Assembly (NCBI GenBank): GCA_944322605.1
Contig: CALUPD010000037.1
Span: 62,001-126,000 of the forward strand
Source: an uncultured Bacteroidales bacterium
GTDB lineage: Bacteria > Bacteroidota > Bacteroidia > Bacteroidales > UBA932
Direction of reading: 5' to 3'
Length of the DNA: 64,000 nt
A program made the translations under genes and the position numbers. The notes below the pieces were generated by a model. That model was not told the DNA's origin and did no database searches. It saw only the letters and a program-made list of their open reading frames with translations. Below, piece by piece: positions 30,806 to 59,023 of the stretch (its first letter is position 1; each line of letters opens with the position of its first letter).

Positions 30806-31663
30806 ATGAAAAATATATCGGCATATTTCTTAATACCCGCTGTTTTGTTTTCGCTCAGTTCATGTGTCGAAAACTCGGCGAAATACAAAGAGCTGTCGGC
30901 TCAAAAGGATTCGTTGGAGGTATATTCCTCGAATTTGGAAAAAGACTATAATAATGTCATAGAGGTAATCGACAAGATAGAGAACTGTTTCAAGGAAATC
31001 AGGGAATCTGAAAAAGCCTTGAAAGTGGATTTGAGCGGGCTTGAAGAAAAGGAAGCTTCTGTTCAGGAAAGGGTTTTGAATGAAGTCGAATCAATCAAGA
31101 ACAATATACTCGAAAGCAGGAACAGGCTTGTAAAGCTTGAATCCCAGCTTAAAGAAAGCGGTCGCAGGAATGCTTCCCTTCAGAAAATGGTAAGCAGGCT
31201 CGAAGAGGAACTGAAGGAAAAGACTGAGTCGCTGATGATGTTGCAGCAGGAACTTGAGAAAAAGAATCTCGAAATGGCCGGAATGGCTGATTCGATCTCA
31301 GAACTTAAAGGCAGCCTTGCTGAATTGGGAAAAGAATCCGAATCGAGAAGGGCGGAACTTGAAAAACTTGAAAATACCGTATGGTATTGCGTGGGTTCGG
31401 CATCCGAATTAAGGGAATCCGGCATACTTACGCGTTCTCCTAAGCGTGTGCTTGTTTCGGATTTCAGCCGCGACGTGCTTGTTGAAACGGATTTGAGAAA
31501 CCTCAAGTCCTTGGATATAAATTCAAGGCGTGCCAAGATACTTACACAGCATCCGCTTGACAGTTACACTTTGGAAAGAAATGAAAACAAGATGATGGTC
31601 CTTACTATTTTGGACGCTGAAAAATTCTGGAGCATATCCAAATATTTAGTTGTACAGAGATAA
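30806..31663 (+). CDS. coiled-coil lipoprotein
   Basis: 285 residues from MKNISAYFLI; an ATG eight codons earlier would spoil the signal peptide. The lipobox is LSSC. Residues about 25-200 are a long heptad coiled coil rich in Glu, Lys and Leu (SGLEEKEASVQERVLNEVE, LQKMVSRLEEELKEKTESL). The C-terminal 85 residues form a globular domain beginning VWYCVGSASELRESGIL and containing RRAKILTQHPLDSYTLE. The domain pattern resembles conserved hypothetical proteins in Bacteroidota. Predicted periplasmic and lipid-anchored. Function unknown; single gene with its own terminator. Confidence 0.85.
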   Translation: MKNISAYFLIPAVLFSLSSCVENSAKYKELSAQKDSLEVYSSNLEKDYNNVIEVIDKIENCFKEIRESEKALKVDLSGLEEKEASVQERVLNEVESIKNNILESRNRLVKLESQLKESGRRNASLQKMVSRLEEELKEKTESLMMLQQELEKKNLEMAGMADSISELKGSLAELGKESESRRAELEKLENTVWYCVGSASELRESGILTRSPKRVLVSDFSRDVLVETDLRNLKSLDINSRRAKILTQHPLDSYTLERNENKMMVLTILDAEKFWSISKYLVVQR

Positions 31664-31972: not shown

Positions 31973-32177
31973 GGTATAATTGCCAAAAATAGCAGTAGGT
32001 TGCCTCTCTGCCTGCCCCATTTTATCACTTTTGTGAGCCGCAGTGCGGAACATCTTTCATGACCAGTTTTTGACATAAAAAACAACCTTGATGAAAAAGT
32101 TTTCATCAAAGTTGTTGCATATAATTGTTTAATAATTAATTATACGAGTTCTTCCAGCTATTTTTGGCGACATTGCC
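31973..32177 (+). repeat. 200-bp hairpin element, copy 1
   Basis: Starts ggtataattgccaaaaatag and ends agctatttttggcgacattgcc, so the termini are near inverted repeats. The middle holds TTTTATCACTTTTGTGAGCC, TGCGGAACATCTTTCATGA and a 14-bp hairpin (left arm AACAACCTTGATGA, right arm TCATCAAAGTTGTT, about 32089-32126). Same order as copies at 57427 and 58765. No coding frame is conserved between copies. It occupies most of the 640-bp gap before the histidine kinase terminus; 31765-31972 shows nothing else. Confidence 0.8.
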
Positions 32178-57317: not shown

Positions 57318-57370
57318 GCGTGCAATGACCGGTCCGTCAGAACCGGATTTAGCAAGTTGGATATAAAATG

Positions 57371-57406
57371 GCAGCCGTCCGGCAACGGGCGGCTGCTTTT
57401 CGTTTT
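57371..57406 (+). terminator. terminator after the small barrel protein
   Basis: Arms GCAGCCGTCCG and CGGGCGGCTGC with a 4-nt loop, then TTTTCGTTTT. Confidence 0.8.
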
Positions 57407-57426
57407 ACCTTAGCGGGAATACGATA

Positions 57427-57622
57427 CAATGTTGCCAAAATAGTTGGAGGCCTCTTTGCCTACTCCTTTTTATCACTTTTTTAGAGTCGCGGTGCGGACA
57501 TCTTTCATAACGAGTTTTGACATAAAAATAACATTGATGAGAGCCTTTTCATCAATGTTATTGCATTTGATTGTTTATTAATCAATCATGCGAGTTTTGC
57601 TAACTATTTTTTGCAATTATGC
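57427..57622 (+). repeat. 200-bp hairpin element, copy 2
   Basis: Same orientation as copy 1. Starts caatgttgccaaaatagttgg and ends gctaactattttttgcaattatgcc. Shared blocks are TTTTTATCACTTTTTTAGAG, GTGCGGACATCTTTCATAA, TTTTGACATAAAAATAA and a hairpin with arms AATAACATTGATGA / TCATCAATGTTATT. Relative to copy 1, one stem pair changes from C-G to T-A, which keeps the pairing. Confidence 0.8.
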
Positions 57623-57636
57623 CTTAATATGTACAA

Positions 57637-58764: not shown

Positions 58765-58960
58765 GGTAATGTTGCCAAAAAATAGTTGGCAAAACTCATA
58801 TGATTAATAAAAAATCAGATGGAATGACTTTGATGAAAACGTTTTCGTCAAAGTTGTTTTTTATGTCAAAAACTCGTCATGAAAGAAGTCCGCACTGCGG
58901 CTCTATAAAAGTGATAAAATGGGGTAGGCAAAGATGTCGCCAACTATTTTTTTGGTCATT
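58765..58960 (-). repeat. 200-bp hairpin element, copy 3 (inverted)
   Basis: Opposite orientation to copies 1 and 2. Starts ggtaatgttgccaaaaaatag and ends cgccaactatttttttgg. Internal hairpin CTTTGATGAAAAC / GTTTTCGTCAAAG, followed by TTTTTTATGTCAAAAACTCG, TCATGAAAGAAGTCCGCAC and AAAAGTGATAAAAT, i.e. the blocks of copies 1 and 2 read on the other strand. It ends about 115 bp from tRNA-Ser. Confidence 0.8.
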
Positions 58961-59023
58961 TGGACATTTGTGGTGATGAAACGAGTTGGAAAATCAAGGG
59001 TGGACATTTGGCGATTATACCAT

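Follow-up and report, generated by a model that had tools for sequence, protein, structure and literature searches.

The locus at 31973-32177 raises the question of whether a repeat of about 200 bp with a strong internal hairpin is a mobile element or a structured RNA; the preliminary description of this DNA had named both a non-autonomous mobile element (MITE) and a structured RNA/attenuator family. The window, by which we mean the whole stretch of 64,000 nucleotides that was analysed, does hold the three copies reported in it, and a blastn search with copy 1 as query matched the two others with E-values of 1e-36 and 1e-45. Both the copies and their parents were identified at the sequence level, and hairpin structure was judged by pair counts. 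The copies, placed by homology search and end reading, and one neighbouring feature are as follows:

31973..32177, minus strand (the sense of the lost transposase gene): copy 1 of the element, 205 bp
57425..57623, minus strand: copy 2, 199 bp
58765..58965, plus strand, inverted with respect to the other two: copy 3, 201 bp, with a decayed 3' inverted repeat
57370..57397, plus strand: intrinsic terminator, context outside the element, ending 27 bp before copy 2

When the whole genome (1.87 Mb, 40 contigs) was searched with copy 1, at least 10 further whole or partial copies were identified outside the window, so that blastn with this query gives a genome total of ~13. The best other copy in the genome had an E-value of 5e-65, full copies matched each other at 1e-31 to 1e-65, and aligned copies were 74–88% identical. 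Those with readable bounds span 51–205 bp, with flanks that are not homologous between copies; the three that measure 51, 66 and 169 bp appear to have arisen by secondary deletion. The element is AT-rich, short and gene-less, and its dispersed copies lie in both orientations between unrelated genes. All three window copies are intergenic, as bacterial MITEs typically are (review PMC10969869): copy 1 is flanked by convergent gene ends at 31663 and 32301, one of these ORFs being a hybrid histidine kinase, and a tRNA-Ser gene lies upstream of copy 3. In a same-genus genome, a long direct-repeat array (L164, positions 1-780, G001:C28) was seen beside the tRNA-Ser equivalent to this neighbour. Elsewhere in the assembly, the matches at the starts of contigs C19 (L008) and C14 (L009) seem to be one copy split by another element; both halves hold CGCGAACATCTTTAAT and contig breaks are close by. 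At the ends of contigs C19 and C5 (L010 and L011), two near-identical partial copies enter the same foreign sequence; the assembly probably breaks at these points on a longer repeat that includes part of the element.

The inverted termini that had been described are real, but the sequence given for them, GCCAAAAATAG, is too short: the true ends lie ~9–12 bp outside it, with an outer part reading GGYATAATT or GGCAATGTT, and the imperfect inverted repeats come to ~24 bp (GGYAATGTTGCCAAAAATAGTTGG or GGYATAATTGCC...). In copy 1 they are:

32154..32177, minus strand: 5' inverted repeat GGCAATGTCGCCAAAAATAGCTGG, matching the parent insertion sequence (IS) 5' end
31973..31993, minus strand: 3' inverted repeat (GGTATAATTGCCAAAAATAGC on the plus strand); the consensus 3' end matches parent IS 3' ends at 92–96%

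Target-site duplications, which the preliminary description had proposed to look for, were recognisable at 8 bp in three of nine bounded copies (CTGATTCA/CTGATTAA, TTTATGAT/TATATGAT and GGCAAAGA/GAAAAAGA; 7, 7 and 6 of 8 positions matching), where a call needed at least 6 of 8 matches and mispaired and shifted flanks gave a null rate of ~1% (binomial p 7e-5). The other six bounded copies lacked a convincing duplication, as expected for old copies at 74–88% identity, though this in itself proves nothing. Parent ISs had perfect 8/8 duplications in 5 of 16 cases (p ~1e-10), so the length is that made by the parent; a further perfect one, TAATTTTC, flanks the L081 IS, whose end was placed by eye. 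A search for empty sites in the same-genus genome gave no alignment, the intergenic regions around copies 1–3 being too diverged, and a scan of the element's own genome with a mismatched inverted-repeat pattern did no better than a reversed control (10/20 versus 12/19). An inverted-repeat pattern matched viral contigs seven times without the rest of the element, matches that we judged to be chance.

The claim that the copies share no protein-coding frame did not survive: wherever a copy is of sufficient length it contains the decayed N-terminus of a transposase, which in copy 1 lies on the minus strand. The longer copies share the transposase start MSKTRHERCPHCGS..KVIKWGRQRG, and the better-kept ones read ATG TCA AAA ACT CGT CAT GAA AGA TGT CCG CAC TGC GGC TCT beside the hairpin, the relic translating as MSKTRHERCPHCGSxKVIKWGRQRG, a zinc-ribbon N-terminus. 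It is present in most copies, open in some and frameshifted or stopped in others, with peptide matches in the genome at E-values down to 1.8e-13:

32004..32076, minus strand: copy 1 relic MSKTGHERCSALRLTKVIKWGRQRG, frameshifted and reaching the deletion junction; shows homology to the N-terminal zinc ribbon of L074, L075 and L078
58863..58935, plus strand: copy 3 relic MSKTRHERSPHCGSIKVIKWGRQRC, frame still open

Phage and plasmid collections gave no DNA match to the element, and with the relic peptide only weak zinc-ribbon matches, e.g., to IS1595 and IS1 transposases.

Recognition of this relic provided the route to the parent IS. A search of 300 same-family genomes with the relic peptide identified ORFs of ~330 residues with the same starting motif, which in L078 and L077 lie inside an IS of ~1.18 kb bounded by inverted repeats GGTATATATGCCAAAAATGG/GGTAATGATGCCAAAAATGG and GGTATAATTGCCATTTTTGG, respectively; the IS with GGTATAATTGCCATTTTTGG ends has a perfect 8-bp duplication. 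The two transposases scored 178.4 and 161.0 bits against NCBIfam NF048019 (IS256 family, variant Zn-binding type; cut-off 150), and both were above cut-off for Pfam PF00872 (Mutator-type transposase domain), with zinc-binding domains NF048018 and NF050000 also above cut-off. Membership of the neighbouring IS1249 type (NF033544) was rejected at 176.5 and 161.6 bits, below its cut-off of 300. The MITE consensus aligned continuously with the 5' end of the L074 IS over positions 1-160 (75% over 166 alignment columns) and with that of the L075 IS over 8-177 (72%), and its positions 171-198 matched the 3' inverted repeats of the L075, L078, L081 and L083 ISs at 92–96% over 25–27 bp. As both of its ends match IS ends, the element is an IS with the middle removed, and the one deletion junction common to the full copies means that this removal probably happened once. 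Its terminal inverted repeats thus match those of an autonomous element, the transposase with matching termini that had been suggested as a check being found in related genomes.

The IS hosts in named records are Bacteroidales MAGs, e.g., Candidatus Cryptobacteroides and Candidatus Coprenecus. Transposases of the parent group or its wider relatives occurred in 45 of 399 family genomes, and at a stricter cut-off five of 393 genomes searched across the order contained a match; neither the element's own assembly nor its one same-genus relative held a full-length parent-group IS or transposase. Two other zinc-ribbon transposase fragments in the own genome (contigs C16 and C12) were rejected as the parent, missing the group at 1e-20. 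Among the ISs themselves, in two other genomes (L094:1477-1563, reverse-strand coordinates, and L086:1495-1566) an L077-type transposase breaks off after its initial ~29 codons and continues into one and the same unrelated sequence (AAGTAGAGGAGCACATAATAAATG...), which is either a shared truncation or a composite. Many L077-type ISs (L104, L105, L106, L108, L111) have a second, inner CACCAACC inverted-repeat core at their 3' end, and some an extra palindrome there.

We conclude that the element is very probably a MITE, an internal-deletion derivative of an IS of the IS256 family (variant Zn-binding type), as the preliminary description had in part proposed; its inverted repeats, the 8-bp duplications at its targets, the number and dispersal of its copies and a parent IS type whose ends match all agree with this, and anatomy, parent family, single common junction and target duplications are direct observations. 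What remains is the 5' portion of the IS, comprising the inverted repeat, the leader with its hairpin and the first ~25 transposase codons, fused to a ~25-bp 3' inverted repeat. It would have spread by the parent IS transposase acting in trans on the inverted repeats, with an 8-bp staggered insertion, this transposase being conjectured from relatives only 72–75% identical over the shared 5' part. The parent IS may since have been lost from the genome or be missing from the assembly, leaving its copies to decay.

The hairpin (a 16-bp stem closed by a 4-base loop, with T's and then an ATG after it on the transposase strand) is as strong as had been reported:

32081..32116, minus strand: copy 1 hairpin, AACAACTTTGATGAAA-ACTT-TTTCATCAAGGTTGTT, then TTTT and ATG
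57527..57562, minus strand: copy 2 hairpin, with compensatory changes in two pairs when compared with copy 1, then T-run and ATG
58823..58858, plus strand: copy 3 hairpin, then T-run and ATG (58863)

In copies 1 and 2 it scored as terminator-like on the transposase strand. A hairpin occupies this position in the parent ISs examined, the order-level relatives L153-L158 among them, and in L135 (G009:C27) a GC-rich hairpin of largely unrelated sequence lies directly before the transposase start, so structure, not sequence, is what is kept. Across 21 sequences, 11 of the 16 pairs were changed on both sides and 90.5% of cells were paired, with a covariation score of 0.473, compared with 0.166 after shuffling and no more than 0.136 when the pairing was slid. 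The C-G to T-A change seen earlier between copies 1 and 2 was confirmed; it belongs to a set of four pairs in which both sides differ within eight MITE copies. Departures from Watson-Crick pairing on the transposase-sense strand were G-U in 21 and A-C in 5 cases (7:3 in MITEs, 14:2 in ISs; the sequences are related and these are not independent events), and this tolerance of G-U over A-C suggests that the hairpin probably acts as RNA and points to the RNA of the transposase-sense strand as the selected thing. The full copies share one junction, and their compensatory changes therefore postdate loss of the transposase gene; this would mean either that selection acts on the hairpin in the MITE too, or that correction of the palindrome by template switching had a part in it.

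From the covariation and the position, the hairpin is most likely a terminator or a start-codon lock against read-through. With its T-run directly before the start codon, it would guard the parent IS: a transcript entering from outside would fold the hairpin, leading to termination or a buried start codon, and a promoter overlapping the 5' arm might give a transcript without that arm, which would be translated. The latter step is suggested by motif resemblance. The Bacteroidetes -7 element is TAnnTTTG, and several members have a box like it in the 5' arm of the hairpin; in L076, L105, L110, L111 and L112 a TTTG lies 18 nt upstream of this box, whereas no such TTTG can be made out in the MITE copies.

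A self-standing family of structured RNAs or attenuators that regulates its neighbours, and that was dispersed for this function and not by transposition, would fit a conserved hairpin with compensatory changes and a T-run as well as the intergenic placement of the window copies. We nevertheless regard this as very improbable: at the gathering score Rfam has no match for the element (in the window it finds two tRNAs and nothing else), the copies combine transposon ends with target duplications and a transposase relic and sit between unrelated genes in both orientations, and the parent ISs hold the same hairpin at the same place. What stands of the attenuator idea is a transposase leader hairpin inherited from the parent IS, not an RNA family in its own right; derivation from IS ends argues against such an origin, while single copies may have been co-opted. 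The AT-richness of the element might suggest a chance likeness of simple words, or a segmental duplication might be imagined, but this is the least credible explanation and is already refuted by the E-values between full copies and their non-homologous flanks, together with the inverted repeats and the homology to IS ends.

A harder alternative, although also an unlikely one, accepts the copies as MITEs and has the hairpin upheld at the DNA level and not by selection on RNA, either by template-switch correction of quasi-palindromes or as a palindrome bound by a transposase or repressor. Agreeing with it are the common junction, by which four pairs covaried after gene loss, and an inner core that is conserved in sequence (GATGAAA/TTTCATC or ATTGAAA/TTTCAAT). 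The asymmetry between G-U and A-C departures is however unexpected from a DNA palindrome, the L135 hairpin is of largely unrelated sequence, and the ATG-adjacent position is kept throughout, with the T-run kept in most.

A further pattern concerns where the parent ISs insert. Of 18 ISs whose 5' flank could be read, 13 are preceded within 65 bp by an intrinsic terminator directed at the IS, 12 of these terminators having an energy of -12 kcal/mol or lower, at distances of 27–58 bp (most 27–34); on the 3' side there was one among 16 ISs, and the background was ~5–7% of intergenic window positions. ISs behind a terminator with the transposase in the same direction are L077, L105, L106, L108, L110, L111, L112, L141, L094, L080, L074 and L075, i.e., most of the L077-type clade plus L074 and L075; L078, L081 and the order-level ISs (the last read by eye) do not share the placement. 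The association was noticed post hoc. It is possible, and we suggest it tentatively, that this IS256-variant clade targets intrinsic terminators in one orientation, ~30 bp downstream, each IS having its own hairpin directly before the transposase start.

A literature search of partial coverage gave no account of this element, and to that extent it may be called new, as it had been, although MITEs are a known kind; IS256 is not mentioned in a review of MITEs (PMC10969869). Parent ISs as a type encode transposases of NF048019 (near IS1249, NF033544) and have ~24-bp inverted repeats starting GG and 8-bp target duplications; the window element differs in having lost the gene save ~25 codons. The closest counterparts are the Porphyromonas gingivalis MITEs BrickBuilt, MITE239 and MITE464, which are likewise from Bacteroidales, non-autonomous and bounded by inverted repeats, BrickBuilt being also intergenic and hairpin-forming (PMC4596501). 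However, these have IS5-family-like ends, in contrast to the IS256-variant ends found here, and BrickBuilt has no transposase remnant, whereas the window element has one of IS256-variant type (PMC4596501). As for the hairpin, a fold at the head of the transposase message that can block expression, as we infer here, has a parallel in ISPpu9, where weakening of the 5'-UTR structure raised expression 26-fold; that IS is unrelated and has two small RNAs (PMC8450116).

With these results, an unannotated repeat of an uncultured gut Bacteroidales lineage gains a clear parent type and anatomy, and its conserved hairpin is traced to a transposon and not to host regulation; with no full parent-group transposase in the host assembly, the copies look stranded. 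Leader structures limiting transposase expression are known from IS10 and others, and the hairpin here comes from the leader of the parent transposon, where it most likely protects the transposase gene against unwanted expression. Covarying as it does at a transposase start, it offers a test case for transposons that block transcription from neighbouring genes. If the targeting of terminators is true, the ISs of this clade would be doubly insulated against read-through, and the MITEs derived from them would carry portable terminator hairpins into the gaps between genes; if confirmed, this would be a rule by which part of the IS256 family chooses its targets.
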